The position numbers and the translations under genes were made by a program. This document shows, one piece after another, positions 14,200 through 52,154 of a stretch of 64,000 nucleotides of DNA (positions within the stretch are counted from its first letter, which is position 1; the number at the start of each line of letters is the position of its first letter). The DNA comes from Halichondria panicea (taxonomy: Eukaryota > Porifera > Demospongiae > Suberitida > Halichondriidae): contig NC_087386.1 of assembly GCF_963675165.1 (NCBI RefSeq), forward strand, positions 1,538,931 through 1,602,930, given 5' to 3'. The notes under the pieces are model-generated. The model was not told where the DNA came from, ran no database searches, and saw only the letters and a program-made list of their open reading frames with translations.

Positions 14200-17100
14200 A
14201 TGATAGTTACAAGAAGAAAGCTGTTTGTTGGAGTTGTCCTTACCATTCTTGGATGCATTGCCTTATTTATAGTGAGTTCAAGATTATAGGCACCTACAAG
14301 AGTTCCTAATGAAGTCTTGGTAACCTAAGTATGTATAGTCTTGCGAGTGCGACATCTTCCTAAAAGGGATATTCTCCCCCCTCACCAACGTCTGCTCGCG
14401 AGACTACCTAGTGTGAGGTTTGTCAAATATACTGGTACATGTCAAGAGCATGCACAAGGTTTTATAAATGCATGAAGGTCTTTACTAATTTAAAAGCATG
14501 AACTTTCGAATCTAGGTTGCATGCTTAAGGCATAGACTAAGTAGATCTATAAGCTTACTGAATCGAAGGCTAGTACAGTTGTGCTAACAAAATTTACTGT
14601 CACACGGGATCAAGAAAGTTCAAACTTCTTGATTCTTAGTCATTGCATAAGGCTATAACTATCACCTGCACGTTCCTCATGCTTTTTCTGTGCTTATACT
14701 AATTACCTGTTTAGTAAACCCTCATGCTTTTAGTACCTTCAAGTTGATGCTTTTAGTTTTTAGTATAATACACATGCACATCATGCTTTAATATCTCACT
14801 ATTAATAACTTCTGTGCGTTGCGTAATTATGGCGCAAACGTCATCAATTGCGAGATGCTCACGTGCAATTGACAGGATGTCACGTTACTTTGTGCACAGT
14901 GTTTGTGTAGAAGTATCAGTAGTTCGACACTCTTTTCTTCTTATGCACTCTTGGTATTACTGTAGAATCTTTGCCAACAACACATGAATAAAAGTGTTGA
15001 GCATTATGCGTTCCTTAGAGAAATGCTTTAATATCTTCATGCATTTACCATAAGAGAGTTGTGGGAAGCAAAAATAATATGGAATTCGCAAAACTAATGA
15101 ATTCACTCAAAACACATCTTGGAAAACTTGACCAATCAGAAGAGTTTGACGTCATTGGGTAACAATTATTACAGGCGCCCTCGTGCTGGGCAATAAATAA
15201 AGTACAAGAGGAGTATGCAACTCCCACGCTAGGGGTTGGTAGATTATGCTCGAGATATTACCTATTATGCTATTCTCAAGTAAACAGCCTATTATTCTTG
15301 CCTATTATTCTTTTCAAATCGCCTATTATTCCCACATTATTCCTCTAAAGCACAACATATGTACATGTAGGCCCCATATCATGTCGTCACACAACTAACA
15401 TCAAACTATAATAATTGCCACGTGACTCTATCTATATTAATGAATTGCAAGGAGATAATTAACCACCAGTACTTCCAAATGTTTATACTACTGTACAACT
15501 CCTATATACTGACCTGTATTCTGCCTATTATTCTCATAATCGCATGTTGTCCTATTGTTCACTGTGATTTGTACAGTGATTAATCGCGTATCAGTAATTG
15601 CACGTCGTCAAGGCAGTAATTGCACGTCGTCATTAATGACATGCAATTACTGCCTTGACAACCGCACGTTCGAATAACGGCCGTGGCTAATTTTTTACTG
15701 AAACTGCAGCTAAAAGTGTCCTTAAAACTGCATCACAAACGATTAACAATCAATAGTATAATAGCTACTCGTGCAATAGGGGATTAATAGCACTCATAAC
15801 AAGCACTGGCAAAGTTAATAGCACTCGGCTGCACCTCGTGCAATTAGTATCCTTGCCATTGCTTGTTACTCGTGCTATTACATATTCCATATAGGAATGA
15901 GTAACTCTCTACGCTTTTACTGGTGTGTTGCAAAGATTTTGCAAACTCCTGTAAATATACCCTCATCTTTTTAGTAATACCGTAGTTATGACAGTGGCGT
16001 AATAAGGGGGGGCTCCAGGGGCTGGAACCCCTCCATCTATCTAGGGCTATTATACTTATCAAGCTGCATGCATCCATTATGTAGATGGCGTACTTCAAAA
16101 AATTAGAGCCCCCCTAATTGAGAAATTTCCTACGCCACTGTATGATATACTGTCTATATGCTTATTATATAAACATCCCTATTATTTACTAATTTATATA
16201 TACCGCCATGCATGCATGTATTTAATAAAATAACACAAAAATATTTTCATGAATATTTTGACACAGACGGCACTCCATGCATAACCTAGAGCTCTTTCCA
16301 GTATTGGGGGAGGCGGCTCAGAAATTCCAAGTGCATATATAAGGTCCACAGGGAACCCTTGTAAACTATATAATGTATGCTCACATGCATTGATGTGCAT
16401 GTAATTATATGTGTAATTAAATCCTACTTCCACATATACAGTGTGGACATACTCCACTCTTGTGGACAAATCACTTCCCCCGTGACTCTCGCATGATGCA
16501 ATGTAGTTCAAGCATCTATAATTTGAAATTCAATGAATTCAACTGTTCTCTGCTCTTCAAGGGTGATGCAGAGGAAATTGCAAAGGCTAAATCGATTGAT
16601 AACAAATCCAAATGGCCAGTTCCATCAGATGACGAGTTCTACAAACTTGCTGACAGTTGTGACTGGATAAAGAAAGAGTTGGATCGAGATTACTACGTGT
16701 CTGAGCAAGAACGGCAATTTCCACTAGCATTTGCTCTAAGTGTATATCAGTCACCTTATCAGATATTTCGGTTTCTCAAAGTTATCTATAGACCTCACAA
16801 TTTGTACTGCATTCACTATGATAAAAAGTCCAGCGAACCATTTAAGAAGCTGATGATCACCATTGCTGCTTGTCTGCCCAATATGATTGTTCCCAGCAAG
16901 ATTGCTGATGTCACATGGGGCTGGCATACTATAGTCGATGCTCAGATGAATTGTATGGAAGATCTCTACGAGCTGCGATACAAATTTCCTTGGAAGTATG
17001 CAATCACTCTGTGTGGGAAAGAAGTTCCCCTGAGAACTAATAAAGAAATGGTTCAAACTTTACACAAGTTGAACGGTACTTCAGCAGTAGTTCTAACAAG

Positions 17101-17771
17101 ACATTTAAAAACTGAATTCGAATATTGGACATATAAATATTCACTTTCCGGAGACTCCGTGGTGCAATTGAAGGAAAAATTGGATCCAATACCATTTAAT
17201 CTCACAATGGCCAAAAGTATGGCATACTACGGGTTATCAGAGACGTTTGTTAACTATTTATTGCACAATGAAGAGGCTGTTAAGTTTCGGAGATTTATGG
17301 AGGATACTAAAATAGCTGATGAGCATGTTGTTGCTACCCTCTTCAATCGAACAGGTATGTCATATACAGAGCTTTTATAGCAACACATTGTTAGCTAGTG
17401 AGAGCCTGCATCTATATATACGTGAGTAGATACTGGTGGATGCATAATTATACATACATGCAGGTGTACCTGGTGGAAGAAATGAAAGATATGTACATCT
17501 TATACCCACAACTTCCTCCTATTTGTGGCTTTCCTCCACGGCAGAGAAGAAGCTATGCACTGGTTGGAATGTGCACAATATTTGTACCATAGCAAATGGC
17601 GACCTACAGCAACTAGACTATACGTTCGACCCTAAGAAATATCATCAAACTTTCTTCCACAACAAGTTTTTCATTGAGAGAGATCGGGCAGTGATGGACT
17701 GTGCTGAGGAAGAGCTCCTCAGGAGAAACAGAGAAGAATGTTTGAGTGACAATGCACTGAGCATGCACTAG
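14200..17771 (+). CDS. GT14 core-2 beta-1,6-N-acetylglucosaminyltransferase-like, copy 1
   Basis: Exons 14200-14271 (phase 0), 16442-17354 (phase 1) and 17464-17771 give 430 aa, close to the 428 of human GCNT1. Exon 1 encodes a short basic cytoplasmic end and a membrane anchor (MIVTRRKLFVGVVLTILGC), as in type II Golgi enzymes. The catalytic region follows GCNT order: FPLAFALSVYQSPYQIFRFL, RPHNLYCIHYDKKS, ADVTWGWHTIVDAQMNCMED, WKYAITLCGKEVPLRTN, then ADEHVVATLFNR, whose Glu fits the catalytic base of GCNT1, and FHNKFFIERD near the end. The expected role is adding branching GlcNAc to O-glycans in the Golgi. It appears intact. A receptor gene converges on it 140 bp downstream. Confidence 0.85.
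14963..15942. repeat. AGAATCTTTGC inverted-repeat element split by inserted DNA
   Basis: The left end at 14963-15010 (GAATCTTTGCCAACAACAC) and right end at 15885-15942 (TACTGGTGTGTTGCAAAGAT) match the ends of the small element seen whole at 29509-29653. About 840 bp of other sequence lies between, including AT-rich DNA with repeated CCTATTATTC motifs (15250-15560) and a hairpin at 15594-15670. Confidence 0.5.
15594..15670. repeat. Hairpin-forming inverted repeat in transferase intron 1
   Basis: GTAATTGCACGTCGTC occurs twice in direct orientation, followed by a complementary arm through GACATGCAATTACTGCC. It is present in both segmental copies (second copy about 44385-44455). It may be the end of a decayed element. 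Confidence 0.5.
15992..16140. mobile_element. Small non-autonomous transposon, CAGTGGCGTA ends
   Basis: A 149-bp element begins CAGTGGCGTAA and ends TTCCTACGCCACTG. TATGA lies immediately on both sides (15987-15991 and 16141-16145). CAGTGGCG-type termini are typical of hAT-like MITEs, though the usual hAT duplication is 8 bp, so the superfamily is uncertain. The same insertion is in the second segmental copy at 44774-44926 and therefore predates the duplication. Confidence 0.65.
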
Positions 17772-18179
17772 TTAAAATTTTATACATTAATTATGACTTG
17801 AGAAATCAAATTAGGAACTGAGTGCAAATATGTCTTTCTTGCAGTAACCTATGTTATGTTTTTATTCAGGCATAGCTGTTTGTGCAAGGTGATAAAACTT
17901 AAAGTCATAACTCACCTATCCATGTCCATAGAGTTGCTTTCGTGTTCTCTAACTATCTTGATTACAATTATGACGATGATAAGCGTGATAACAATCACAA
18001 TCATAAGAAGTATAATCACTCCAAGAATAGCTTCGATAAGCAGCCCAGAGTTGTCTCCAGTCCCTGCAGTAGTGGGAGGAGTGTTGGGAGGTGCGGTAGG
18101 CACGACAACAACAGCATCCGTGGCTACGGGAGAGAGGACATTAATATGAGAGTGAAAACTATATTATTATCAGTACAGT

Positions 18180-18774
18180 CAGGAGCACATTACAGAAGGA
18201 GCGTCTAACTATGCATGGGTTCGGAAATCGCATCTCATGTGCTTTCCTAAACGCCGCATTGCCTTATAAGAAAATGTGTAAGTACTGTGTACATAAATTA
18301 CAGACCGCAGTCAGCCTGTGAATATCATTATAAACGGATTTTGTATGTAGTGCAGCAGTAGGAGAGCTAGGTTGAGCTAGAAAGAGCTAAAATGAATAGC
18401 TAGATCTTTGATGGATGTTGGTATACATCATGGAAGAGACTGTCATAGGTGAGGTAAAGAAAGTTCTAAAATAGGAGCATATCCAGTCACTTTGTACAGA
18501 GAAAGTTAGACTAACACATACTAGGCGTTTTGTTTTTGCAGTAGGGAGTCTTACTGGGGTTCTTAGAAGAGAGAGCTTACTACCAGGCCTATAGCTAGCT
18601 AGCTAGCTGTAGCTTTTCACTTTTATTGACCTATGCTTGGTAAAAGTGCACCGTCAGCTCAATTAGCATTCGCCCGCAGACCCACTTAGTGGTTTTGCAT
18701 ATAAGGTAATGCTTTGCAAACTTCCACGAGATGCGATTCCCGAGGTAAGACGCTCCTTCTGTAATGTGCTCCTG
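18180..18774. mobile_element. Non-autonomous DNA transposon with 7-bp target duplication
   Basis: A 595-bp insertion in receptor copy 1 with terminal inverted repeats of about 26 bp (start CAGGAGCACATTACAGAAGG, end its complement). GTACAGT flanks both sides (18173-18179 and 18775-18781). The paralogous site at 46983-46996 reads straight through with a single GTACAGT, giving an exact empty site. No coding capacity was seen. Ends resemble the 206-bp element at 24874-25079, which also has a 7-bp duplication. Confidence 0.85.
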
Positions 18775-19871
18775 GTACAGTCAAACCTATTGAATGTACT
18801 TTAATAGCCTTTTGCTCAAATTATGAAGGTTGAAAATTTGTCCCAAAATGGTCAGTTTATTATAATTATAATCGGGATTTTTTAGGATCCCTTAAAGTAG
18901 CATAGTGGATAATTAATTTTTCGTTGGTGCAAATTTTCGAATGAACTATTTTAACTATTCGTACAGCTCAAGATAGTGACGTAGATAGAACCTAGGCTAT
19001 TATGCCAGAACAATTTCTTTTTGATGATACTCTACAATAGGAAAAATTCCACCATATGAAAATAACCCGCTATAATTATATATCATGGTATTCAGCTCTG
19101 ACCCCAGTACAACTACATGCATGTGCCAGTGGGATACAGTAGATCTATATTGCACTCACTCAGGACAATTGTTTGCATGGTGACATTGTTCATTTGGCTC
19201 GAGATACAAGTATAAATTCGTGTGCTAGTCGTAAGTGGGTCTCTTGTCAGATTCACAGTCAGTGTGCTGATCAAACTTGGTATAGGTTGTGCCCCTCCAT
19301 TCTGAATAAACATGTCTCCTTGCTCCGGACGTGATGGTATTAACTAAGTCATTGGATAGTTCATTGTTAGATGTTAGATAGTTGCCAAGTGATCGAAGGA
19401 ACATTCATTGAAAGGTATAAATATAATATAGCCATGCATAGAGAGAGCACCTCAGCACTGCACTGCATGTCATCACTGGCTGTAACTTGAATCATTCCAT
19501 TCTCAGCTTGTAGAGTACCTGCAGCAAAGATAGGAGACATTGACACATTGTACAGTGCACAATTTGTATGATGCAACAGAACTGTAAATTTCATCTTAGC
19601 GTACTATGTCTTCTTTTTCTATCGTATAAATGTACTGTTTTATCTGTCAGTGAGAGGGTAATATCAACGCTATATGACGCCATTGTTCCAAAATTAATGT
19701 TCTGAATGTGTGAGTGGTCTGACATTGGCATCATTACTGCTGAGTGGTGATAGCTCCAGAACACTAGTCCTCCCAGCATTGAGTACTCGTGCTGGAGGGA
19801 GGGGGTCACCAGTAAGCCGAGTCCAGGTCCATGCAGTCAAACTGTCCCTCAGTGACAGAGAAGGTTAGGCT

Positions 19872-19926
19872 TAGACTCGCCAGCCAGCCCTTCCTTACCC
19901 CGAGGAAGGGCTGGCTGGCGAGTCTA
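19872..19926. repeat. 55-bp perfect hairpin insertion
   Basis: Two 24-bp complementary arms (TAGACTCGCCAGCCAGCCCT...) around a 7-base loop sit inside the Ig1 exon of receptor copy 1. The equivalent place in receptor copy 4 (near 48050) lacks it, so it arose after the duplication. Confidence 0.7.
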
Positions 19927-20165
19927 GGTCAGGCTGAGTGATGAGTTGACAGTTGGTGGGTAGATGGTCCCCACAGTGTCCGGGGTGAAGGTGATGGGAG
20001 GAGGGTTGAGGAGAGTTACAACTGGAGGGGTGGAAGGATGAGTAAGGTATACAGTTCATGTTCAATTTGATATTGTCTGTACCTGACTCTGATGTGCAGA
20101 TCTCCACCTCAGTCAAGAGAAGCCAGTCGGTCTGTTCAGTGTTTGAGAATAATTGTCTCTTTGAA

Positions 20166-20743: not shown

Positions 20744-20821
20744 ATGATAGTTACAAGAAGAAAGCTGTTTGTTGGAGTTGTCCTTACCAGTCTTGCAATT
20801 GGATGCATTGCCTGCATAGCA
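20744..20821 (+). CDS. Transferase copy 2, separated exon 1 (membrane anchor)
   Basis: Seventy-eight bases encode MIVTRRKLFVGVVLTSLAIG plus CIACIA and end at a GTGAGT donor in phase 0. This is exon 1 of a GT14 gene. The matching exon 2 is not found within the next 1.5 kb as in copy 5; it lies at 29948. Between them is about 7.6 kb holding a truncated receptor and the sulfatase. Splicing across that distance is possible in principle but unproven. Confidence 0.65.
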
Positions 20822-21778: not shown

Positions 21779-21822
21779 GTACTCTCATGCTTTTAGTAAT
21801 AAATAGCTTGATGCTTTACTAC

Positions 21823-21984: not shown

Positions 21985-23589
21985 TAAATAAATACCCTCA
22001 TGCATGCTTTAGTAATAGTTATGATACTGTCTATACTATCATTTTTTTATATCAAGTCATGCTTTTACTTAATATATACCGCGGCCATGGATGCATGCAA
22101 TTACAATAATCTTGTCATGAATATTTTGCGACGGCACCCCATGCATAACCTAGAGCTATTTCCAATATTGGGGGAGGCTCAGAAATTCCATGTACGTATA
22201 TAAGATACACAGGGAGGCTCGGACGTGATGGTATTAACGGAGTCATTGGATAGTAGTTCATTGTTAGATAGTCGCCAAGTAATTGAAGGAACAGCCATTA
22301 AAGGACGGTAGCCAGAGAGAGAGCACCTCAGCACTGCACTGTTATTACTGGCTGTAACTAGAATCATTCCATTCTCAGCTTGTAGAGTACCTGCAGCAAA
22401 GATAGGAGACATTAAACACATTGCACACCACATAATACCACACAATCAGTATAGCTGTTGCTCTATGCTGTACTTTTAATATAGAAAGCTTAGTGATATA
22501 GCCCTCTATCATAATTACCTGGCAGTAAGAGGGTGATATCAACGCTATTTGACACCGGTGTTGTTTCAAATGCTCCGCCGAATGTGTGAGTGGCCAGACA
22601 TCGGTAGATACCGGCATCATTACTGCTGAGTTGTGATAGCTCCAGAACACTAGTCCTCCCAGCATTGAGTACTCGTGCTGGAGGGAGGCCTAGGGTGTCA
22701 CCAGTAAGCCGAGTCCAGGTCCAGACAAACCGTCCCTCAGTGACAGAGCAGGTCAGGCTGAATGAGGAGTTGATGCTGGGTGGGGAGATGGTCCCCACAG
22801 TGTCCGGGGTGAAGGTGATGGGAGGAGGAGTGGGGAGGGGTACAACTGGAGGGGTGGAAATATGTGTATAAGGTACAGTGTTCAATTTGATATTGCCTGT
22901 ACCTGATACTGATATGCATATCTCCACCTCAGTCAAGAGAAGCCAGTCGATCTGCTTAGTGTTTGAAAATTTGAATATAATTGTGAAGGTATCACTGGTA
23001 GGAGTCAAAGACAGTAATTCTGGGATAAGGGTGACACTTCGTTGTCCATTATCGTCCAGGGTCAAGTCATCATTACCCTCCAGTTGATATGGATGGTCAC
23101 TAGATGGTGAGGTTATTCTGATATTGTAAGGTAGTCCAATTCTTCGCGAGGGAATGTTGTAGAAGTAGAGATTGAGTCCCTCCACGTATGTAGTGACCAT
23201 AGTAGTAAAAGTGAATGAGATACTGACAGTCTGATCCCAAGCATGGCCAACAAAGGTACCATCATCAAGAGTTTGTGAGCCCAAGACTTCATCACCTAGT
23301 CTTTCAGTAGGAAGTGCCACAAATCCTGGTCCTATACACGTGACAGTAGACATGCTAGTAGACGATGTACAACCACCCAGTGTGCTCTGTCCCTCAAAGT
23401 CACTGGGGGGTGGGGTAACCGTGTACCATGACCATGTCCTGTCTGTGTGTGTATGTGTTTGAGGTTTTGAAAAAAAATAAAAATAAAATGTAGGTGGAAT
23501 TGTGTTGTCTGCAACGTATACTAGCTCAAACGGAATGCTTGATAGATTATTCTTATGGGTGTATTTACGACGAGATTTGTATTTAGGGA

Positions 23590-24660
23590 ACTACAGTAAA
23601 CCAGAAACAAACAAAAAAAAAGAGAGCAGACAACACAAAACCATACAGGTATAGAAAAAGCAAACAGATGTTCGGCCTGCCGAGAATGATGGGTTAACCC
23701 TTTCCCGGCTTTAATTAAAACAAAATAATACAGAATAAATACATGTTTTTCTTTAAAAATCCATATCTTATGAACCGTACATTGAAATCACTCGTAACTA
23801 TTTCCTACAGGTAGCCCAGACCCCGGGGGTACCATGACATCATCATCGTTACCTAGCAACTGACCACCTCCAACTAATTAGCGATTGTTTACAAACATTC
23901 ACAATTATGTACACAAACAATATTATACGAAGGCACAAAGTGACTATAGACACTAAGTAAGTGTTCTCAATGTTCTCACGGTGACATAGTTCGATCAGGA
24001 TCTGCCGAAACTTCTCTGCGAGGTCGTATCAGCAGACGCCCTTTTCCCGGGAAACGTTCTTCACCTACACACACGTTTATAAGTTCAATGGTGGCTCATG
24101 ATATCCACTGCTGTACTAACTAGCCTAAGCAAACCTATACTGAAGCTATCCTGAAGCTATCAGAATACAGTAGGTTGTACAAATGCTACTCTAGACTTAC
24201 CAGATCCAGAAACTTGGTCCAGCTCCTTCAGGCTCCTCAGGCTCTTTATTTTTTAGCTTGAGGTAGCTTCCTACCTAGCTACGATCCCAGTCACTGTCCT
24301 CTCACTCTACAAGGCCATAAGCATCGATATTCTCACTGTCTAGCAGCTCTAGAGCCCCACTGAGGTTGTACTACAAAGATCTTGAAGTCATCATCAAACG
24401 GTCACTTTTCTTTCGACAGTACTGCACAAAGCGTACCTCGAAGCAAGATGTTGAAAATACCACGTGAAAGAGCAGCTCAATGTGCATGTGCTGGTACCTA
24501 CAGTGTGCGCATAGCTCCAACACAGCCTGCACAGCAAATTTTTGAAAAATCTCGGTCCGCTGGACGACATATGTCGTCTAAAGCCGGGAAAGGGTTAAAG
24601 AGTCTTTAACGGTGCACCAACCCTCCCCATTCATCTGTTGCATTCAGAACAACTAGTATA
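23590..24660 (-). repeat. tRNA-like SINE interrupted by a piggyBac-type element
   Basis: Around the TTAA-flanked insertion the outer parts join into a sequence resembling the repeat at 25985-26130: on the minus strand GGGAGGGTTGGTGCACCG (A-box-like), then GGCAGGCCGAACATCTG (B-box-like), then an A/T-rich tail. The SINE call is tentative. Confidence 0.35.
23698..24594. mobile_element. piggyBac-like non-autonomous element
   Basis: 897 bp flanked by TTAA (23694-23697 and 24595-24598), with ends CCCTTTCCCGGCTTTA and TAAAGCCGGGAAAGGG. TTAA duplication plus CCCT ends are diagnostic of piggyBac. No full transposase is present. A minus-strand stretch around 24280-24360 (LELLDSENIDAYG, EDSDWD) resembles the acidic N-terminal region of piggyBac transposases, so it may be an internally deleted copy. 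Confidence 0.75.
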
Positions 24661-24873
24661 CTGAATAATTATTGTAAGCTATTCACTTCATGGGGCCATG
24701 CTGATTGTAAGCTATTTTCATATTTGAGGTAATGCTGACATAAAGTATAGAACTTATTTTAGACTTCATATTGGCTGCTGTAATACTTCAACTTATTAAT
24801 TTATAAGGTACACAGGCTGTATTGTCTGGGCCAGTTGGTTTTGTGGTGGGACTATCTGGTAATGGGGATGGGT

Positions 24874-25079
24874 CAAGAGCGCATAAAAGAGAGAGAGCGT
24901 GTAACTTCCGTCTCCTACAGTGCGGGCAGAATCCACTATAAATAGAACTATGGTCACGTGGGACTACATTCCATGCACATGCAGCAGTGAGTGATTTCAA
25001 GAATGGTTCTATTTATAGTAGTGCCCGTACGTGTAGCGGATGCATAAGTTACACGCTCTCTCTCTTTTATGCGCTCTTG
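24874..25079. mobile_element. MITE with 7-bp target duplication (GATGGGT)
   Basis: 206 bp with inverted ends of over 30 bp (CAAGAGCGCATAAAAGAGAG and complement) and a second complementary block (CTATAAATAGAAC / GTTCTATTTATAG). GATGGGT flanks both sides (24867-24873 and 25080-25086). Its ends follow the pattern CARGAGCRCATWAMAG shared with the element at 18180-18774. Confidence 0.8.
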
Positions 25080-25175
25080 GATGGGTCTATGTGGTTTTTC
25101 TAGGTGGTAAGCCAAAACAAGTCTAATTTTGGTTTTTAGAATTAGCACCAGGCATTAAATAGATGGTAGTGTGTC

Positions 25176-25177
<2 letters not shown>

Positions 25178-25249
<72 letters not shown>
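25178..25249. repeat. GT microsatellite
   Basis: An almost pure GT repeat of about 70 bp with one CAC interruption, in receptor 1b intron 1. Confidence 0.9.
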
Positions 25250-25251
<2 letters not shown>

Positions 25252-25380
25252 ATAGAAGGTATACAAAAGGTATAGGGTGGATGATGGCTTTCAACCACAC
25301 ATCCTATCTTATTCAACACGGAATGCTCAGTTCTGAATTTTCATTTGGAATCCCATCTCTGTTGTTACCTTACTTACTGT

Positions 25381-25417
<37 letters not shown>

Positions 25418-25984
25418 CAGTATTTAAAGTGTGTGCATGCATTTAGCTTACATTAGTTCACTTGTCATCTTTCAGGTAGGCCAGGTGGAGAGGAGATTGA
25501 TAGACTATTTTTAGGATTATCATGTGATGTTTCTTTATGTAATGGAGCAGGCTTGTGTATTGTGGTAATGTACTTGTGGATCTTAATTGTATGTGTAAAT
25601 TTCACTATCTTCATTAATTTTGGTGTATCATTATTTTGGGGTTTTTGTTTTGTATGCTTTTATGGTAGTAAGGCAATGGTTTGGGTTTATGTTTTGAGGG
25701 CGTTCTGGAAGCTGTATGTGGCGTACACCGTGGTTGTGGTGTTTTTTTTAAAGTATGCAGGGTACATGTATTCTGTAGTGCTCAGTGCTGGTAATTTATT
25801 CTTTTGCTCAACGGGGTCCTATCAGTGGCTTTGTTACTCTATACCATGGGTTGGGTGGACATACCTATTAAGTGAGCTTACATTTGCAGTGGCCCTGCTG
25901 CTATTATATCTAAAGGACTTAGGTTATAGTCTGAATTCAAAGTGGGCAGTACTGGTTATTGTCAATAATAACAAATGGGGGGGG

Positions 25985-26130
25985 GGGGCACAGGGGACAG
26001 AAAATAAAATTAAAACAGAAAACATAGACAAATGATAGACAAAGAAGCACTTGAACGCCCGACCTTGAGATTCGGGAATGGGGATTAAAGATCTTTGATG
26101 GTACCAACTCTCTCCGCTCGTTCAATGCAT
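25985..26130 (-). repeat. tRNA-derived SINE-like repeat
   Basis: On the minus strand the head reads GAGAGAGTTGGTACCATC, then ATCTTTAATCCCCATTC, then GGTCGGGCGTTCAAGTGC. Order and spacing resemble a tRNA D-loop (A box), anticodon arm and T-loop (B box). An A/T-rich tail follows on the far side. It lacks a full acceptor stem and is not a tRNA gene. Confidence 0.4.
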
Positions 26131-26552
26131 CCACAGTCTTAAGTATAGATACTTGTACACAATACTTGTACACAGCTACTTATTACACATTGGGTATGTT
26201 TACATAGCTATTCAATGGTTTGAGGATATCTTGTTCATGTATCCACAGTCTTAACAATTTAGTATACTTATGTATTTTACACCTTGGGTATGCTTAGCTA
26301 TTTAATTACAGTAATAATGGTGGGAGCACTTATCTTATGTTATTCTGAGTGGGTTGCTGCAGTTTACTTGGCTTTGTTATGGAGGCTCTCTTAGGACTTA
26401 TCTCATGTGACTACTACTGGGTTGTGGTACTTTGGAGGGAAAAACCTAGGGTCTTATCTAATTTTTGTGGTATAAGCTTAATTAATGCTTATACATATAA
26501 ATAAAGTACATGTACATTTAGGTGACATGTGTGTGTAGTCTTTACATTTCTT

Positions 26553-26629
26553 AGAGTTAGCACAAGGCATTAGTCAAAATAAATATTTCTTAGAGTTAGC
26601 ACAAGGCATTAGTCAAAATAAATATGTGG

Positions 26630-26682
<53 letters not shown>
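26553..26682. repeat. 37-bp direct repeat followed by GT microsatellite
   Basis: CTTAGAGTTAGCACAAGGCA... occurs twice in tandem, then about 50 bp of GT. A related sequence (AGAATTAGCACCAGGCATTA) precedes the GT tract at 25178, so both tracts descend from one duplicated segment. Confidence 0.75.
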
Positions 26683-26685
<3 letters not shown>

Positions 26686-27114
26686 GCAATGTACACACAT
26701 CAAGCTAATTACCTGTTGGAGAACACAATCCATGAACTGTAGACTGCGTAATAGTCAGAAATACAAATACCACAACTATTGTCAATTGCATCTTGTCTAT
26801 GTACATACGTATAAATCGAGCCTACTGCCAGATCTTCAGATATATAAAATTATGATGTAGTCTATACAAGCCCCACCCAGGGGCCACTATTGTTAGCTAA
26901 GGATTCTTGTAGCCACAACTGGGAGCAATAAAATTCTTGTGTAATGAGCTCTTACGAAGTGCCGTAACACCATCAGTATTAGCATGTAATATTGAGCACC
27001 TTCCTACGGCTATCCCTGGAGATGAACTGTGGAGGAAGATGGGCAGTGATGCCGCGCCAGTGTACTATAGCCAATATAGTTTGTACTTCATTGAGTCTGC
27101 AACTGGTTGTCAGT

Positions 27115-27222: not shown

Positions 27223-27334
27223 TACTGCACTGCAAAAGGAAAACCTTCCGAGATTAATTCTCGAAATAAAGTAAAAAGATGGGAGGGGCTGCCTTGTGCA
27301 AATGCGTGGGAGTGGCTGCTCAGCATCAAACAAG

Positions 27335-39451: not shown

Positions 39452-40544
39452 TGCAATTTTATATGACTTCGAGAAACCGAATTATCTGATAAGGGGACTG
39501 AAAATTACTATTAGTGCAAATGTTGTCTTTTTTGCTCAGACATTATAATTATAGTTATGTTTTGTTATTCAGGCACAGCTGTTTGTGCAAGGTGAAAGTC
39601 ATCTGGCCACTTTTGTTTTCAATGTCCATATTTATGCCTCGAGGCGTAGCCGCAAGAGACAGCCGATCTCCATGTGTGCATGCCCACAAGAGCAGGACAA
39701 TACTGAGCCTGATACTGAGCCAACAAGTGAGACAATATTAAGTGAGCCATAGGCCATTTGCCGCAACACAATCTCTTTAGCAAACTAAAGCTTTTTTCTA
39801 GAGTTATGGTTGTTTGACTCACAGTGAAAGCTGTTGCAGTCTCTTTAAAATCTTTCATAGCGTCATCTGTTTACAAACTTTCTATTCAACTTATGAAGTG
39901 TTAGAAGTGTAATTACTTCTTACAACCCACTACTTCAATCTAGATCTATTTTAAACTAATAATAAATGTTTTTCTTCATAATTTGCTATTCACACTGAGA
40001 CGGAGGTCACAGCAAATTAGTCCAACTCTTATAGTCATGTTGCATTAGCCTCGATCCCAGGCTGATCCGTCTCCAATTGAACGCTAGGTCGCCTCCTCCT
40101 AGTAAGGAACAGCTTGTAGCAATGCTACAGTGCACTATCGTTCCCAAAGACACAGGAGTCTACTGAAGTATAAACAATTTTGAAACATGGCTGCAGGATG
40201 GAAACAGAAGTCAGGAGGACGAAGTTGACAAATGCTACAAGTTGAAGACATGCTTTCATGTTTGTGACAATGGATCCAGAACAGTTAAAATCATTGGCTC
40301 TTAGTGTTCCTCGTAGGGACAAGAAAAGATACTGTGGAACCCTATACTATCAACCCAGCAAACGCTATAGAAACTGGTAGTGAAAAAACTGAACAGCCAT
40401 AGCTAATTATCATGCAGCTACAGCTTTATTATCATTTCTGTACATTTAAAAAAATTATACTTGTACTTTATACCCTCAAGCTTATAATTCCCTGGGAAAC
40501 TATGAGATTATGGCTCATAATTCCCTGATAAACACACACAAGTG
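39452..40544. other. Spacer between transferase 3 and receptor 3 remains
   Basis: It includes an interspersed-repeat stretch (about 39630-39900, starting TTATGCCTCGAGGCGTAGCC), a receptor-tail fragment near 39995, and about 330 bp of unique sequence (40055-40385) with no gene supported. Confidence 0.4.
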
Positions 40545-41745
40545 GGATCTAATCACTCCAAGAATGGTTCCGATAATCAGCCCGAGGCTTTCTCCATGCA
40601 GTCTCAGGAGTGGGAGGAGTGTTGGAACATGTGGGAGGAATGGATCGACAATATCAGTGGCTGCAAGTGAGAAGAGGAGGAAATTAATACGTGAAAACTA
40701 TGTCAATACAGCGAAACCTAATAGCCTTTTGCTCGAATTATGGAGGTTTAAAGTTTGTCAACAAAATCGTCAGTTTCCTTGCTCGGCTATTATACCATTG
40801 GATCCCTCGAAGTAGGCTACCATCGTATTCAACTCTGACCCCGGTACAATTACAATTGTTTGGAAGAGTACGTTGAATAATTTTGGCTCGAGATACAAGT
40901 GTATAAATTCGTGGGCTAGTCGTAAGTGGATCTCTTGTAAGATTTACAGTCAGTGTGCTGACAAACTTGGTATAAGTTGTGCCCCTCCATTCTGAATAAA
41001 CCTCCTTGCTCAGACGTGATGAGTCATTGGATAATTAATTGGCTAGCCGAATTATCAAAGGAACAGCCATCGAAGGAAGGTAGCCAAGAGAGAGCACCTC
41101 AACACTGCACTGTTATCACTGGCTGTAACTAGAATTATTCCATTCTCAGCTTGTAGAGTACCTGCAGCAAAGATAGGAGACATTAAACACGTTGTACAGT
41201 GTGCAATTAGTATGATGCAACTGTATAATTATACAGTACGTAGAAAGCATAGCCTACTTCTTCTTCTATCGTATAAATGTACTGTTTTACCTGAAAGTGA
41301 GACCGGGGAGATATCAATATTATTTGACTATTGTGTTCCGAATGTGTGAGTGGCCTGACATCAGTAGGTATCGACATCATCATTACTCCTGAGTTGTGAT
41401 AGCTCCAGAACACTAGTCCTCCCAGCATTGAGTACTCGTGCTGGAGGGAGGGTGTCACCAGTAAGCCGAGTCCGAGTCCAGGTCCAGTCAAACACCGTCC
41501 CTCAGTGGCAGAGCAGGTCAGGTTGAGTGAAGAGTTGATGGTGGGTGGGGAGATGGTCCCCACAGTGTCCGGGGTGAAGGTGATGGGAGGAGGGGTGGGG
41601 AGGGGTACAACTGGGAGGGGTGGAAATATGAGTAAGGCACAGTGTTCAATTTGATATTGCCTGTACCTGATTCTGATGTGCAGATCTCCACCTCAAACTC
41701 AAGAAAAGCCAGTCTAACTGTTCAGTGTTTGAGAATTAGAATAAT
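40545..41745 (-). pseudogene. Ig-domain receptor copy 3, heavily decayed
   Basis: Remains of the stalk exon (about 40550-40670), Ig2 (about 40860-41170), Ig1 (about 41290-41600) and the end of exon 2 (about 41665-41745) are in the usual order. Several frame breaks are present, and exon 2 is cut at the same point as in copies 1 and 4. Confidence 0.75.
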
Positions 41746-41765
41746 TGTCTCCTTGCTAGAGCATA

Positions 41766-42972: not shown

Positions 42973-42973
42973 A

Positions 42974-45900
42974 ATGATAGTTACAAGAAGAAAGCTGTTT
43001 GTTGGAGTTGTCCTTACCAGTCTGGATGCATTGCCTGCATAGAATTATTTATAGTGAATTCAAGATTATAGGCACCTACAAGAGTTCCTAATGAACCCTT
43101 GGTACCTAAGTATGTAGTCTTGTGAGTGCGACATCTTCCTATATAGAGGGAATATTCTCCCCCCCACCAACGTCTGCTCGCGAGACTACATAGTGTGAGG
43201 TTTGTCAAATATACTAGTACATGTCAAGAGCACAAGGTTTTATAAATGCATGAGGTCTTTACTAATTTAAAAGCATGAACTTTCGAATCTAGGTTGCATG
43301 CTTAAGGCATAGACTAAGTAGATCTATAAGCTTACTGAATTGAAGGCTAGTACAGTTGTACCAACAAAATTTACTGTCACAACGGGATCAAAGAAAGTTC
43401 AAACTTCTTGATTCTTAGTCATTGCATAAGGCTATAACTATCACCTGCACGTTCCTCATGCTTTTTCTGTGCTTATACTAATTACCTGTTTAGTAAACCC
43501 TCATGCTTTTAGTACCTTCAAGTTGATGCTTTTAGTTTTTAGTATAATACACATGCACATCATGCTTTAATATCTCACTATTAATAACTTCTGTGCGTTG
43601 CGTAATTATGGCGCAAACGTCATCAATTGCGAGATGCTCACGTGCAATTGACAGGATGTCACGTTACTTTGTGCACAGTGTTTGTGTAGAAGTATCAGTA
43701 GTTCGACACTCTTTTCTTCTTATGCACTCTTGGTATTACTGTAGAATCTTTGCCAACAACACATGAATAAAAGTGTTGAGCATTATGCGTTCCTTAGAGA
43801 AATGCTTTAATATCTTCATGCATTTACCATAAGAGAGTTGTGGGAAGCAAAAATAATATGGAATTCGCAAAACTAATGAATTCACTCAAAACACATCTTG
43901 GAAAACTTGACCAATCAGAAGAGTTTGACGTCATTGGGTAACAATTATTACAGGCGCCCTCGTGCTGGGCAATAAATAGAGTACAAGAGGAGTATGCAAC
44001 TCCCACGCTAGGGGTTGGTAGATTATGCTCGAGATATTACCTATTATGCTATTCTCAAGTAAACAGCCTATTATTCTTGCCTATTATTCTTTTCAAATCG
44101 CCTATTATTCCCACATTATTCCTCTAAAGCACAACATATGTACATGTAGGCCCCATATCATGTCGTCACACAACTAACATCAAACTATAAATAATTGCCA
44201 CGTGACTCTATCTATATATTAATGAATTGCAAGGAGATAATTAACCACCAGTACTTCCAAATGTTTATACTACTGTACAACTCCTATATACTGACCTGTA
44301 TTCTGCCTATTATTCTCATAATCGCATGTTGTCCTATTGTTCACTGTGATTCGTACAGTGATTAATCGCGTATCAGTAATTGCACGTCGTCAAGGCAGTA
44401 ATTGCACGTCGTCATTAACGACATGCAATTACTACCTTGACAACCGCACGTTCGAATAACGGCCGTGGCTAATTTTTTACTGAAACTGCAGCTAAAAGTG
44501 TCCTTAAAACTGCATCACAAACGATTAACAATCAATAGTATAATAGCTACTCGTGCAATAGGGGATTAATAGCACTCATAACAAGCACTGGCAAAGTTAA
44601 TAGCACTCGGCTGCACCTCGTGCAATTAGTATCCTTGCCATTGCTTGTTACTCGTGCTATTACATATTCCATATAGGAATGAGTAACTCTCTACGCTTTT
44701 ACTGGTGTGTTGCAAAGATTTTGCAAACTCCTGTAAATATACCCTCATCTTTTTAGTAATACCGTAGTTATGACAGTGGCGTAATAAGGGGGGGGGGGCT
44801 CCAGGGGCTGGAGCCCCCCCATCTATCTAGGGCTATTATACTTATCAAGCTGCATGCATGCATTATGTAGATGGCGTACTTCAAAAAATTAGAGCCCCCC
44901 TAATTGAGAAATTTCCTACGCCACTGTATGATATACTGTCTATATGCTTATTATATAAACACCCTATTATTTACTAATTTATATATATACCGCCATGCAT
45001 GCATGTATTTAATAAAATAACACAAAAATATTTTCATGAATATTTTGACACAGACGGCACTCCATGCATAACCTAGAGCTCTTTCCAGTATTGGGGGAGG
45101 CGGCTCAGAAATTCCAAGTGCATATATAAGGTCCACAGGGAACCCTTGTAAACTATATAATGTATGCTCACATGCATTGATGTGCATGTAATTATATGTG
45201 TAATTAAATCCTACTTCCACATATACAGTGTAGACGTACTCCACTCTTGGGGACAAATCACTTCCCCCGTGACTCTCGCATAATGCAATGTAGTTTTAGC
45301 ATCTACAATTTGAAATTCAATGAATTCAACTGTTCTCTGCTCTTCAAGGGTGATGCAGAGGAAATTGCAAAGGCTAAATCGATTGATAACAAATCCAAAT
45401 GGCCAGTTCCATCAGATGATAAGTTCTACAAACTTGCTGACAGTTGTGACTGGATAAAAAAAAAGTTGGATCGAGATTACTACGTGTCTGAGCAAGAACG
45501 GCAATTTCCACTAGCATTTGCTCTAAGTGTATATCAGTCACCTTATCAGATATTTCGGTTTCTCAAAGTTATCTATAGACCTCACAATTTGTACTGCATT
45601 CACTATGACAAAAAGTCCAGCGAACCATTTAAGAAGCTGATGATCACCATTGCTGCTTGTCTGCCCAATATGATTGTTCCCAGCAAGATTGCTGATGTCA
45701 CATGGGGCTGGCATACGATAGTCGATGCTCAGATGAATTGTATGGAAGATCTCTACGAGCTGCGATACAAATTTCCTTGGAAGTATGCAATCACTCTGTG
45801 TGGGAAAGAAGTTCCCCTGAGAACTAATAAAGAAATGGTTCAAACTTTACACAAGTTGAACGGTACTTCAGCAGTAGTTCTAACAAGACATTTAAAAACT

Positions 45901-46556
45901 GAATTCGAATATTGGACATATAAATATTCACTTTCCGGAGACTCCGTGGTGCAATTGAAGGAAAAATTGGATCCAATACCATTTAATCTCACAATGGCCA
46001 AAAGTATGGCATACTACGGGTTATCAGAGACGTTTGTTAACTATTTATTGCACAATGAAGAGGCTGTTAAGTTTCGGAGATTTATGGATGATACTAAAAT
46101 AGCTGATGAGCATGTTGTTGCTACCCTCTTCAATCGAACAGGTATGTCATATACAGAGCTTTTATAGCAACACATTGTTAGCTAGTGAGAGCCTGCATCT
46201 ATATATACGTGAGTAGATACTGGTGGATGCATAATTATACATACATGCAGGTGTACCTGGTGGAAGAAATGAAAGATATGTACATCTTATACCCACAACT
46301 TCCTCCTATTTGTGGCTTTCCTCCACGGCAGAGAAGAAGCTATGCACTGGTTGGAATGTGCACAAGATTTGTACCATAGCAATGGCGATCTTCAGCAACT
46401 AGACTATACGTTCGACCCTAAAAAATATTAGCAGACTTTCTTCCACAACAAGTTTTTCATTGAGAGAGATCGGGCAGTGATGGACTGTGCTGAGGAAGAG
46501 CTCCTCAGGAGAAACAGAGAAGAATGTTTGACTGACAATGCACTGAGCATGCACTA
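42974..46556 (+). pseudogene. GT14-like copy 4, pseudogene
   Basis: Exon 2 (45229-46141) is fully open and near-identical to copy 1. Exon 1 (from 42974) has lost one base relative to its paralogues (ACCAGTCTGG against ACCAGTCTTGG), leading to a stop, and its GTGAGT donor is GTGAAT. Exon 3 (46251-46556) has lost one A (AGCAATGG against AGCAAATGG) and carries a TAG. Two independent exons are damaged, although the duplication is recent. TGG to GGG (W to G in LLGTNHF) is a further change in exon 2. Confidence 0.75.
44774..44926. mobile_element. CAGTGGCGTA element, second segmental copy
   Basis: The same insertion as 15992-16140, a few bases longer because of a longer G run. Confidence 0.65.
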
Positions 46557-46722
46557 GTTAAAAATTTATACAGTTATATATTTATTTATTTAATTATGAC
46601 TTGAGAAATCAAATTAGGAACTGAGTGCAAATATGTCTTTTTTGCAGTAACCTATGTTATGTTTTTATTCAGGCATAGCTGTTTGTGCAAGGTGATAAAA
46701 CTTAAAGTCATAACTCACCTAT

Positions 46723-48290
46723 CTATGTCCATAGAGTTGCTTTCGTGTTCTCTAACTCTATCTTTGTTCTTTTGATTACAATTATGACGATGATAAGCGT
46801 GATAACAATCACAATCATAAGAAGTATAATCACTCCAAGAATAGCTCCGATAAGCAGCCCAGAGTTGTCTCCAGTCCCTGCAGTAGTGGGAGGAGTGTTG
46901 GGAGGTGCGGTAGGCACGACAACAACAGCATCAGTGGCTACGGAAGAGAGGACATTAACATGAGAGTGAAAACTATATTATTATCAGTACAGTCAAACCT
47001 ATTAATAGCCTTTTGCTCAAATTATGAAGGTTGAAAATTTGTCCCAAAATGGTCAGTTTATTATAATTATAATCGGGATTTTTAGGATCCCTCAAAGTAG
47101 CATAGTGGATAATTAATTTTTCGTTGGTGCAAATTTTCGAATGAACTATTTTAACTATTCGTACAGCTCAAGATAGTGACGTAGATAGAACCTAGGCTAT
47201 TATGCCAGAACAATTTCTTTTTGATGATACTCTACAATAGGAAAAAATGAAAATAACCCGCTATATATATATCATGGTATTCAGCTCTGACCCCAGTACA
47301 ACTACATATGCCAGTGCATGGGATACAGTAGATCTATATTGCACTCACTCAGGACAATTGTTTGCATGGTGACATTGTTCATTTGGCTCGATATACAAGT
47401 ATAAATTCGTGTGCCAGTCGTAAGTGGGTCTCTTGTCAGATTCACAGTCAGTGTGTTGATCAAACTTGGTATATATAGATTGTGCCCCTCCATTCTGAAT
47501 AAACATGTCTCCTTGCTCGGACATGATGGTATTAACTAAGTCATTGGATAGTTCATTGTTAGATGTTAGATAGTTGCCAAGTGATCGAAGGAACATTCAT
47601 TGAAAGGTATAAATATAATATAGCCATGCATAGAGAGAGCACCTCAGCACTGCACTGCATGTCATCACTGGCTGTAACTTGAATCATTCCATTCTCAGCT
47701 TGTAGAGTACCTGCAGCAAAGATAGGAGACATTAAACACATTGTACAGTGCACAATTTGTATGATGCAACAGAACTGTAAATTTCATCTTAGCGTACTTC
47801 TTTTTCTATCGTATAAATGTACTGTTTTATCTGTCAGTGCATGAGAGGGTAATATCAACGCTATATGACGCCATTGTTCCAAAATTAATGTTCCGAATGT
47901 GTGAGTGGTCTGACATTGGCATCATTACTGCTGAGTTGTGATAGCTCCAGAACACTAGTCCTCCCAGCATTGAGTACTCGTGCTGGAGGGAGGGGGTCAC
48001 CAGTAAGCCGAGTCCAGGTCCAGTCAAACTATCCCTCAGTGACAGAGAAGGTCAGGCTGAGTGAGGAGTTGACGGTTGGTGGGTAGATGGTCCCCACAGT
48101 GTCCGGGGTGAAGGTGATGGGGGGGAGGGTTGGGGAGAGTTACAACTGGAGGGGTGGAAGGATGAGTAAGGTACAGTTCATGTTCAATTTGATATTGCCT
48201 GTACCTGATACTGATGTGCAGATCTCCACCTCAGTCAAGAGAAGCCAGTCGGTCTGTTCAGTGTTTGAGAATAATTGTCTCTTTGAAAAT
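46723..48290 (-). pseudogene. Ig-domain receptor copy 4, truncated
   Basis: Membrane exon (46723-46935: SGLLIGAILGVII, tail KRTKIELENTKATLWT), Ig2 (about 47350-47720), Ig1 (about 47830-48140) and the end of exon 2 (to 48290). It lacks the signal-peptide exon and most of exon 2, and Ig2 is frame-broken near a TATATATAG insertion. The truncation point equals that of copy 1, so it predates the segmental duplication. Confidence 0.8.
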
Positions 48291-48902: not shown

Positions 48903-51900
48903 ATGATAGTTACAAGAAGAAAGCTGTTTGTTGGAGTTGTCCTTACCAGTCTTGGATGCATTGCCTGCATAGCAGTGAGTTCAATATTCTATATATAAAG
49001 GTACTAAGTAGATCTATATATGTCTTGCGAGTGCGACATTTTCCTAGAGGGAACATTCCTCCCCCCCCCCCCCAAATTTGCTCGCAAGACTACTTAGTAT
49101 ATATGGGGTTCCATTTATAATTTTAGTACATGTCAAGAGCACTATAAATGCATGAGGGTATTTACTAAAAGCGTGAGGGTAATTACTAAAAGCATGAACC
49201 TCAGGGGTATTTATATATATAGCTTCCAATCCAGGTTGCATGCATGCTTGCTTTGATTTGAGGCTATTATTTCCAAATTATAGTGTATATATAAGGCATA
49301 GACTAAATAAGCCTAAGCTCTGAAGGCTATATACATTTGTGCCAACAGAATTTACTGTGTAATTATCGGTATATAAATACACACAAGCTTTATATCTTCA
49401 TGCATGCATTTACCATAAATACTATAATGGAGTTTGTAGAATCTTTGACAACACATGAATAAAAGATAGTGTTGAACATTACAATAATGTATGTGTTCCT
49501 GAGGGAAATGCTCATACACATAAGTAGTAAAACAGACCACAGTGAACGTGTACACATATTCCATATAAGGAACACGTAACGCTCTACGTTTTTACTGGTG
49601 CATGTGTTGCAAAGATTCTGCAAACTCCAGTACTCTCATGCTTTTAGTAATAAATAGCTTGATGCTTTTACTACAGAATCTTTGCAACACATGAATAAAA
49701 GTGTTGAGCACTGGGGTTCCTTATATGGGAAATGCTCACTACATTAAAACAGTCCACAGTGTGTACATGCACGTATTCCATATAAAGGAATGTGTGGCAC
49801 TTCTATACGCTTTTATACTGGTGTGTTGCAAATATTTTGCAAAGTCCTGTAAATAAATACCCTCATGCATGCTTTAGTAATAGTTATGATACTGTCTATA
49901 CTATAATTATATAGATACCCTCAAGTCATGCTTTTACTGTAAACACTTAATATATACCGCGGCCATGGATGCATGCAATTACAATAATCTTGTCATGAAT
50001 ATTTTGAGACGGCACCCCATGCATAACCTAGAGCATTTCCAATATTGGGGGAGGCTTAGAAATTCCATGTACGTATATAAGATACACAGGGAGGCACTAA
50101 TTATAATTATGGTCACATGATGCATGGATGCATGTAATTATGTGTAAAATTATACCTTTTATTTAATTCCTACTTTCATGCACATGCAGTGTTTGAAATA
50201 CGGACGTACTCCACTTTTGTGGACAAATCACTTCTCCCGTGACTCTCGCATGATGCGATGTAGTTCAAGCATCTACAATTTAAAATTCAATGAATTCAAC
50301 TGTTCTCTGCTCTTTAAGGGTGATGCAGAGGAAATTGCAAAGGCTAAATCGATTGATAACAAATCCAAATGGCCAGTTCCATCAGATGACGAGTTCTACA
50401 AACTTGCTGACAGTTGTGACTGGATAAAGAAAGAGTTGGACCGAGATTACTACGTGTCTGAGCAAGAACGGCAATTTCCATTAGCATTTGCTCTGAGTGT
50501 ATATCAGTCACCTTATCAGATATTTCGGTTTCTCAAAGTTATCTATAGACCTCACAATTCGTACTGCATTCACTATGATAAAAAGTCCAGCGAACCATTT
50601 AAGAAGCTGATGAATACCATTGCTGCTTGTCTGTCCAATATGATTGTTCCCAGCAAGATTGCTGATGTCATATGGGGCTGGCATACTATAGTCGATGCTC
50701 AGATGAATTGTATGGAAGATCTCTACGAGCTGCGATACAAATTTCCTTGGAAGTATGCAATCACTCTGTGTGGGAAAGAAGTTCCCCTGAGAACTAATAA
50801 AGAAATGGTTCACACTTTACGCAAGTTAAACGGTACATCGTCAGTACATGTAATGGAAAATAAAAAACATGAAATCAAATATTGGACATATAAATTTTCC
50901 CTTTCTGGACGCTCAATGGTGCAGTTGAAGGAAAAATTGGATCCAGTACCGTTTAATCTCACAATGGCCAAAAGTATGGCATACTACGGGCTATCGGAGA
51001 CGTTTGTCAACTATTTATTGCACAATGAAGAGGCTGTTAAGTTTCGGAGATTTATGGAGGATACTAGAATAGCTGATGAGCATGTTGTTGCTACCCTCTT
51101 CAATCGAACAGGTATGTCATATACAGAGCTTTTATATATAGCAACACATTGTTAGTGAGAGCTAGCTAGCCTGCATTAGTAAAACCAGTAGGTTTTACAT
51201 AAGATGGACAGTGCAGTTGTGTGTGTTTTCAATTATTACGTGAGTCTATATAATAGTTATAGGCTGAGTCCAAGGTCTCTATGGGGTTTTGAGACCCCGA
51301 GGGCCCGAGGCCGAGTGTAGCGATGGTGCTACTAAGGGCCTAAGGGTCTCAAACTCCATAGTGACCGTTGGACGAGGCCTATAACTGATTTAGAATAGTG
51401 CTAAGCAATCTAAGCAATTTTTAAACAAAGAAGACTCTGTTTCTACAAACCTCAAGCAACATTAAAGCTTTGCTCTATATAGCTAGTCTATACATAAAAA
51501 AAAAACTCACATTGAAGGCAGTTTCCGTCTCTTTGCATAGCAAAAACGGTTAATAGAAAGTTGCTATTCTACTTAGTAGTAGCTCTGCACTAGAGCACTA
51601 GCTATTGGTAGCTGCAAGAGTGAGATAAAAGCTACAAAATGTTGCTAAGCATTCCATGTATGATTGTATGTATCATGTAAAAATGTTAAATGCATGTAGT
51701 GAACATATAATGGACCTCCATAGAAGACCTCTGAATGACTGAGAGGTCTCTATGAGAAATAAAGGACCTCCAAGTAACCAATCAGATTGCACCATTTGTG
51801 ACAAGCATTTTAATTATATAGATATACTGGATGCATATACATGCAGGTGTACCTGGTGGAAGAGATGAAAGATATGTACATCTTATACCCAGAACTTCCT

Positions 51901-52154
51901 CCTATTTGTGGCTTTTCTCCACGACAGAGAAGAAGCTATGCACCGGCTGGAATGTGCACAATATTTGTATCATAGCAAATGGCGACCTACAGCACCTAGA
52001 CTATACGTTCGACCCTAAGAAATATCATCAAACTTTCTTCCACAACAAGTTTTTCATTGAGAGAGATCGGGCAGTGATGGACTGTGCTGAGGAAGAGCTC
52101 CTCAGGAGAAACAGAGAAGAATGTTTGAGTGACAATGCACTGAGCATGCACTAG
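48903..52154 (+). CDS. GT14 core-2 GlcNAc-transferase-like, copy 5
   Basis: Exons 48903-48974, 50190-51111 and 51847-52154 give 433 aa with all blocks: anchor MIVTRRKLFVGVVLTSLGC, FPLAFALSVYQSPYQIFRFL, RPHNSYCIHYDKKS, WGWHTIVDAQMNCMED, LCGKEVPLRTN, ADEHVVATLFNR and FHNKFFIERDRAVMDC. It appears intact. The variable middle (SSVHVMENKKHEIKYWTYKF) groups it with copy 2, against copies 1, 3 and 4 (SAVVLTRHLKTEFEYWTYKY). Intron 2 is 735 bp rather than about 110-170 because of inserted repeats. No receptor gene faces it; only receptor-tail fragments remain downstream. Confidence 0.85.
49428..49629. mobile_element. TGGAGTTTG element, uninterrupted copy
   Basis: 202 bp, ends TGGAGTTTGTAGAATCTTTG and complement. 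It is the empty-site counterpart of 21281-21778. Confidence 0.65.
49674..49837. mobile_element. AGAATCTTTGC-family MITE
   Basis: Left AGAATCTTTGCAACACATGA, right TACTGGTGTGTTGCAAATAT. It is the counterpart of 21823-21984. Confidence 0.6.
51256..51385. mobile_element. GTTATAGGC inverted-repeat element in transferase 5 intron 2
   Basis: About 130 bp with imperfect complementary halves: GTTATAGGCTGAGTCCAAGG at the left and GTTGGACGAGGCCTATAAC at the right, with GTTTTGAGACCC / GGGTCTCAAAC inside. About 420 bp of further inserted sequence follows to about 51800, absent from the other copies. Confidence 0.65.

Follow-up and report, generated by a model that had tools for sequence, protein, structure and literature searches.

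A 64,000 bp stretch of the genome of the sponge Halichondria panicea (contig NC_087386.1, positions 1,538,931 to 1,602,930 of the forward strand; called the window below, with positions counted from its first base) carries an array in which plus-strand glycosyltransferase (GT) genes of family GT14 alternate with minus-strand receptor genes of the immunoglobulin (Ig) superfamily (IgSF) in six repeated units between 14.1 and 53.6 kb. We lean, though not strongly, toward the reading that these are two co-duplicated families that undergo birth and death and that each perhaps diversifies at its binding face. The array grew by repeated block duplication of a stretch with GT14 and IgSF receptor genes that face each other, after which the two families lived and died independently, as the mismatched partners of the intact genes and the inherited lesions show. 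Repeats were found by self-BLAST of the window and the copies were located by tblastn with exons; all comparisons among copies concern few copies from one haplotype. An initial annotation of this DNA had described a repeated GT14-receptor array with a tandem birth-and-death pattern, and both descriptions hold: self-BLAST blocks (including one of 4.0 kb at 97% identity) and tblastn copies demonstrate the repetition, and the genes GT1, GT5 and R2 are complete, the remaining copies being broken or partial. The genes and their remains are as follows (N-domain, receptor N-terminal domain; aa, amino acids):

13908..13967 (-): R0, scrap of the end of a receptor N-domain, cut nearly where R1, R3 and R4 are
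14200..17771 (+): GT1, complete GT14 gene, 430 aa, loop type A; exons 14200-14271, 16442-17354 and 17464-17771, open throughout
17081..17164 (+): the 28 codons of the GT1 hypervariable loop, which correspond to C2GnT-L residues about 241-268 by way of the GT5 alignment
17930..20150 (-): R1, broken receptor; membrane exon, Ig2 and Ig1 with frameshifts, N-domain reduced to its last 22 aa
20744..22218 (+): relic GT unit; anchor exon 20744-20821 still open, with intron sequence; a deletion at about 22217 has removed the GT body
22179..26791 (-): R1b, open receptor frame of 385 aa without membrane span; signal peptide, N-domain, Ig1 and part of Ig2
29948..31349 (+): GT2, loop type B; exons 29948-30872 and 31042-31349 open, anchor exon not found
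32457..34979 (-): R2, complete receptor, 558 aa; five exons, all four introns in phase 1
37962..39451 (+): GT3, broken, loop type A; anchor exon at 37962, last third only of the main exon (38726-39011), exon 3 at 39144-39451
39990..41755 (-): R3, broken receptor with several stops and frameshifts
42974..46557 (+): GT4, broken, loop type A; main exon 45229-46141 open, exons 1 and 3 damaged
46733..48271 (-): R4, broken receptor, lesions in common with R1
48903..52154 (+): GT5, complete GT14 gene, 433 aa, loop type B; exons 48903-48974, 50190-51111 and 51847-52154, open throughout
52695..53557 (.): receptor vestige beside GT5, matching 31868-32354 just beyond the R2 3' end

The best repeat block in the self-comparison (14199-18181 against 42973-46995) is 4.0 kb long and 97.2% identical, which excludes chance repetition, and it extends at 94.4%, 93.0% and 87.5% identity through the receptor into the GT intron of the next unit. 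The last large duplication was therefore no neat pair: besides a GT and a receptor it took in the 5' part of the GT that follows. The GT4 unit is 97% identical to the GT1 unit; its copy starts at the GT ATG, and the upstream sequence of the other units is absent from it. The count of five units given initially stands for the GT main exons but not for the units, of which there is an extra sixth at 20.7-23.4 kb whose GT body is deleted. Since each receptor start faces the GT start of the next unit as well, a "convergent pair" is one way of drawing the array; a promoter shared within such a pair is ruled out by the position of the gene starts at its opposite ends.

Five GT14 main exons were found by tblastn (16442-17354, 29948-30872, the 5'-truncated 38726-39011, 45229-46141 and 50190-51111), each followed by its own terminal exon, and five copies of the exon 1 that codes for a type II anchor lie at 14200, 20744, 37962, 42974 and 48903 and are identical over the 46 bases searched. 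In full, the gene consists of a 24-codon anchor exon 1, a main exon that encodes the Branch domain and ~102 codons in a last exon; two of the five main exons belong to a complete gene. No exon 1 was found for GT2: a search of the window with the 46 bases, allowing 12 mismatches, returned the five positions above and no others. Both end exons of GT4 are frameshifted; exon 1 also has an altered splice donor, and exon 3 a stop. Between exon 1 and the cut main exon of GT3 lies a 182-base near-perfect palindrome (38405-38586, 97%), perhaps a small mobile element.

What kind of enzyme do these genes encode? The Pfam Branch profile PF02485 matches all four non-truncated main exons scanned (of the five; E 3.8e-31 to 5.8e-31), and the closest PDB relative of GT5 is C2GnT-L (2gak; E=1.6e-44 over residues 57-421, 365 residues), its match to xylosyltransferase 1 (XylT1) being far weaker (E 3.6e-11). 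These two matches uphold the earlier assignment to the core-2-type (O-glycan branching) enzymes. Ten of 17 C2GnT-L positions mapped onto GT5 are matched, namely E320, K401 and eight of nine cysteines (in what we take to be the C2GnT-L numbering); the ninth, C100, is one column off in the alignment. Exon 1 codes for MIVTRRKLFVGVVLT..., basic residues followed by a hydrophobic stretch, which points to type II topology from the sequence alone. The predicted GT1 and GT5 proteins are anchored in the type II orientation and have the Branch domain, cysteines and catalytic Glu of C2GnT; they are probably located in the Golgi and probably add a β1,6-N-acetylglucosamine-type branch to surface or mucin-like O-glycans. 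The array GTs thus share type II anchor, Branch domain, cysteines, Glu320 and Lys401 with C2GnT-L/GCNT1 (GT14; PDB 2gak, 2gam and 3otk), from which they differ in their tandem arrangement and in several residues that weigh against too close an identification. W356 and Y358, presumably contact residues, are not matched in GT5, and the positions that we take to be core-1 acceptor contacts, E243, K251 and R254, are H, E and Y there; because these acceptor residues are not kept, we class the enzymes as C2GnT-like and not as core-2 enzymes proper. Of the two basic residues that contact UDP, K401 is kept in GT5, whereas the R378 column has His in each of the five GT copies (for the roles of Glu320, Arg378 and Lys401 see the excerpts of PMC5992326 and PMC4202792; the two basic residues are given as UDP-contacting in the former). 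Pattern searches for GT relatives gave 136 viral-contig and 52 prokaryote-genome matches, none of them confirmed, and since the collections were viral and prokaryotic this is uninformative on novelty among animals.

Replacement changes among the GT copies are concentrated in one loop, which aligns gap-free with C2GnT-L residues 241-268 on the acceptor side, a stretch in which we take three acceptor contacts to lie. Its position rests on the alignment, the structure model of the GT main exon having a predicted local distance difference test (pLDDT) score of only 33. Two loop types are present, A in GT1, GT3 and GT4 and B in GT2 and GT5. Between GT1 and GT5 the loop has 18.5 replacement and 4.5 silent changes in 66 and 18 sites (replacement rate dN 0.353, silent rate dS 0.297), and the sequence outside it has 17 and 17 in 905 and 229 sites (dN 0.019, dS 0.078). 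Such clustering of replacements was reached in 0 of 5000 shuffles both for GT1-GT5 and for GT1-GT2, and replacement versus silent counts inside and outside the loop differ at p<0.05 in five of ten GT pairs (uncorrected, and the pairs are not independent). The GT2-GT5 loop comparison gives 6 replacement and 0 silent changes. Outside the loop dN/dS is 0.24-0.26 among GT1, GT2 and GT5. The different acceptor-side loops probably give GT1 and GT5 different acceptors, to judge by their sequences. An excerpt of PMC7948508 describes hypervariable segments HV2 and HV3 as forming the Gcnt1 acceptor site, and the GT loop may be one of them.

Three observations weigh against diversifying selection as the cause of this pattern: the GT2-GT5 replacements are not clustered (1851 of 5000 shuffles), silent changes cluster in the loop too (157 of 5000 shuffles, GT1-GT5), and loop divergence, 0.255 over a slightly longer stretch (24 of 94 columns), equals that of introns (0.20 and 0.25). 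Because silent changes also cluster and the divergence is that of introns, an older or exchanged loop segment under relaxed constraint would explain the divergence as well as selection does, and so would the retention of an older loop sequence between flanks kept alike by homogenisation or purifying selection.

R2, the only complete receptor of five, is encoded by a signal peptide exon (34979-34883), an N-domain exon (34821-34291), Ig1 (34230-33910), Ig2 (33792-33469) and an exon for stalk, membrane span and tyrosine tail (32860-32457). The architecture first described, a signal peptide, an N-domain, two Ig domains and a membrane span, is recovered in R2, and its Ig domains, signal peptide and membrane span are those of an IgSF receptor. 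The N-domain is 177 aa long, the Pro/Thr-rich stalk has 30 residues with 9 Ser/Thr and 8 Pro, and the hydropathy plot has one strong peak at the membrane span. Ig1 matches Pfam Ig_3 (E 1.5e-6 in R1b and 2.6e-6 in R2; 29.0 and 28.3 bits against a cut-off of 30), Ig2 matches C2-set_2 below cut-off (E 0.001), and the best PDB match of the receptor, to Dscam, is weak (5.8e-5); matches to antibody chains reflect nothing more than the Ig fold. The previously proposed tyrosine-motif tail stands as far as its tyrosines go, four in 74 aa (NEAYGFK, NTLYGPG, GVYEEPD and HDYEELD), but the tail has no canonical immunoreceptor tyrosine-based inhibitory or activation motif (ITIM or ITAM) by the consensus as we take it to be. 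One DYEEL near the tail end is a possible single YxxL of the hemITAM type. R2 would sit at the cell surface as a type I receptor, with a variable N-domain that probably binds a ligand and tail tyrosines that may signal.

The initial tally of two intact GTs and one intact receptor is correct for GT1, GT5 and R2, to which R1b adds a second open receptor frame if its signal-peptide exon belongs to it. The R1b exons are signal peptide 26791-26713, N-domain 23442-22903 and Ig1 22845-22519, with a stop near 22179 within Ig2, and the proposed splice sites carry GT and AG. The signal-peptide exon, 3.3 kb away, is provisionally assigned by its common CSPT ending and its reading phase. R1b may be a secreted form of the receptor. 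Just above this exon, 26950-27151 is a distant (65%) copy of the sequence beyond the R2 3' end, possibly a trace of another receptor.

Is the receptor N-domain also diversifying? The R2 and R1b N-domains are 77% identical. Their first 95 codons differ by 37.5 replacement and 5.5 silent changes (dN 0.195, dS 0.087, dN/dS 2.2) and the other 80 by 11 and 6. The excess of dN over dS in the first 95 codons is borderline (Fisher p=0.066; bootstrap P(dN<=dS) 0.01), the same codons compared with 7 differences in 158 intron bases give p=6e-5, and a placement-aware shuffle test with 45-codon windows gives 60 of 5000. The case is weakened in several ways: it comes from a single receptor pair at a Fisher p of only 0.066, the codon-95 boundary was picked after seeing the data, the whole N-domain gives a Fisher p of 0.30, and dN is about equal to dS in Ig1 (0.070 and 0.068) and below it in the compared part of Ig2 (0.073 and 0.216). 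The excess of replacements that the initial annotation proposed to look for in the receptor domains is thus present, at borderline strength, in the first half of the N-domain and not in the Ig domains of these two copies.

Searches with the N-domain itself gave, in Pfam, only DUF7949 (E 0.069, R2) and nothing for R1b, and in PDB a single match at E 3.1; 208 viral-contig and 59 prokaryote-genome pattern matches, none confirmed, are uninformative on animals. Its predicted fold (pLDDT 50) consists of strands and one short helical turn. None of 1332 Foldseek matches has E<=0.001, and the 50 listed include viral capsids, carbohydrate-binding modules, Cry, laminin, CUB and discoidin (TMq 0.18-0.42), which is only a hint of a jelly-roll in this model.

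Neutral expansion could account for much of the above: a duplication-prone stretch in which most copies decay, the survivors serving housekeeping O-glycan branching and adhesion and no recognition. The small number of complete genes, two for five GT main exons and one for five receptors, agrees with it, as do a loop that diverges at about the intron rate and the low dN/dS of the GTs outside the loop. It does not predict the strong concentration of replacements in one GT loop, nor the weaker one in the first half of the N-domain, and we regard it as a serious but rather doubtful explanation.

Co-duplicated families that live and die separately, the reading we prefer, must also be set against the initial proposal that every transferase determines which O-glycan type the adjoining receptor or its ligand carries, the pair being a functional unit. 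The alternation and co-duplication of the two genes, the Ser/Thr/Pro stalk of R2 as a plausible O-glycan carrier and the regions of elevated replacement in both genes are what that proposal would lead one to expect. However, both members are intact in none of the six units: GT1 stands with the broken R1, GT5 with a vestige (beyond which nothing was found on its receptor side), R2 with the GT2 that has no anchor exon, R1b in the unit without a GT body, and GT3/R3 and GT4/R4 are broken in all four members. Moreover, R1 and R4, in units that are 93–97% identical, have five frame-shifting indels in common. In Ig1 both have lost the same 10 bases, gained 5 and had a splice donor altered, and in Ig2 both carry insertions of 4, 14 and 7 bases; the receptor of this lineage was therefore dead before its unit was copied. 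Judging by these lesions, selection for the pair did not drive the R1/R4 duplication step of array growth. A maintained pair should look otherwise, and since no unit is intact on both sides and the R1/R4 lesions were inherited, the action of an enzyme on its paired receptor is unsupported. Neighbouring enzymes and receptors are probably neither matched enzyme-substrate partners nor fixed pairs, and we consider the paired unit unlikely.

The N-domain losses have a history of their own. R0, R1, R3 and R4 all lack the N-domain from nearly one point, similarity ending within about 15 bases of it, and the sequence beyond the cut is common to R1 and R4 only; a single loss event is likely for R1 and R4 and possible for all four. 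R1 differs from R4 in a 64-base palindrome-like insertion in Ig1 (19870-19935).

Recognition of cells or microbes is plausible for the separately evolving families, in that the enzymes may vary surface sugars and the receptors their binding domain. A more ambitious version, in which the locus links writers and readers, the GTs writing alternative surface glycans by loops A and B and the receptors reading them, is in our judgement very improbable. If true, the readers would be the variable, probably all-beta N-domains, membrane-bound in R2 and secreted in R1b, and haplotypes would carry matched sets of glycans and receptors, though single neighbours are unmatched.

About as improbable is a variable-exon cluster like GCNT2, with anchor and main exons spliced across the array and GT2 borrowing the orphan anchor exon at 20744. 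That exon (20744-20821) does carry a GT donor, the GT2 frame is open and has no anchor exon of its own, and the vertebrate Gcnt2 tandem cluster, with its multiple first exons, evolves by birth and death (PMC1885805, in part); yet every GT copy has its own terminal exon, and the splice would have to span 9 kb, past both R1b and a sulfatase gene. Least credible is an assembly artefact, in which extra copies came from misjoined haplotypes or consensus errors: the sulfatase gene within the array changes frame at a C-run near 28.07 kb, so that some single-base lesions may be sequence errors and all need caution, but the copies differ by 3-30% and structurally, and R1 and R4 have multi-base insertions and deletions in common.

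To our knowledge, little is known of the genes by which glycans would differ from one individual to another. Co-duplicating glycan-branching enzymes and receptors give concrete exons to genotype (GT loop and receptor N-domain), and the array could show whether enzyme polymorphism, beyond receptor polymorphism, encodes individuality. Its parts recall several described systems. Vertebrate Gcnt2 (I-branching) likewise shows GT14 tandem duplication with birth and death and an anchor in the 5' part, but its copies use two shared constant exons, whereas those of the array each have a terminal exon and have receptors between them (PMC1885805, in part). The Botryllus fuhc receptors and Hydractinia Alr also comprise several IgSF-type receptors per locus with tyrosine-bearing tails, and the fuhc locus also encodes a secreted protein (excerpts of PMC12065747); unlike these, R2 has no canonical ITIM or ITAM, and the array has no known allorecognition phenotype. 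No word beginning "glycosyl" occurs in the text of that paper on the fuhc and Alr loci. Carbohydrates (glyconectins) are linked to sponge cell recognition, and sponge Ig-domain adhesion molecules and glyconectins resemble the array in Ig domains and carbohydrate-based recognition, a likeness by description only; glyconectins are proteoglycan-like, unlike the array products (PMC11999971, in part). Literature searches returned no paper on sponge allorecognition with immunoglobulin and glycosyltransferase and none on a sponge GT14 glycosyltransferase, and no GT-receptor array is described in the titles or abstract openings among the matches listed.

We take the window to be animal DNA because its genes have introns and animal-type domains. 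The sulfatase gene inside the array (27275-28863, +) has no evident introns and a signal-peptide-like start, and its halves match the bacterial arylsulfatase model PRK13759 with 242 and 264 bits, neither reaching the cut-off of 481 for the whole protein; its CTPAR is presumably the active-site motif, and a gain from bacteria is possible. To the right of the array, a DUF6589 gene (54294-57710, +) lies tail to tail with a DEAD/Helicase_C gene (57872-59339, -) that we assume to be RecQ-like, and the two look like a transposon-derived cluster. To its left are two tandem sugar transporter genes (2082-6067, -) that are 92% identical (Pfam Sugar_tr in the one copy scanned) and a tandem gene pair (6782-10619, +) that is 78% identical, the single exon scanned having no Pfam match.

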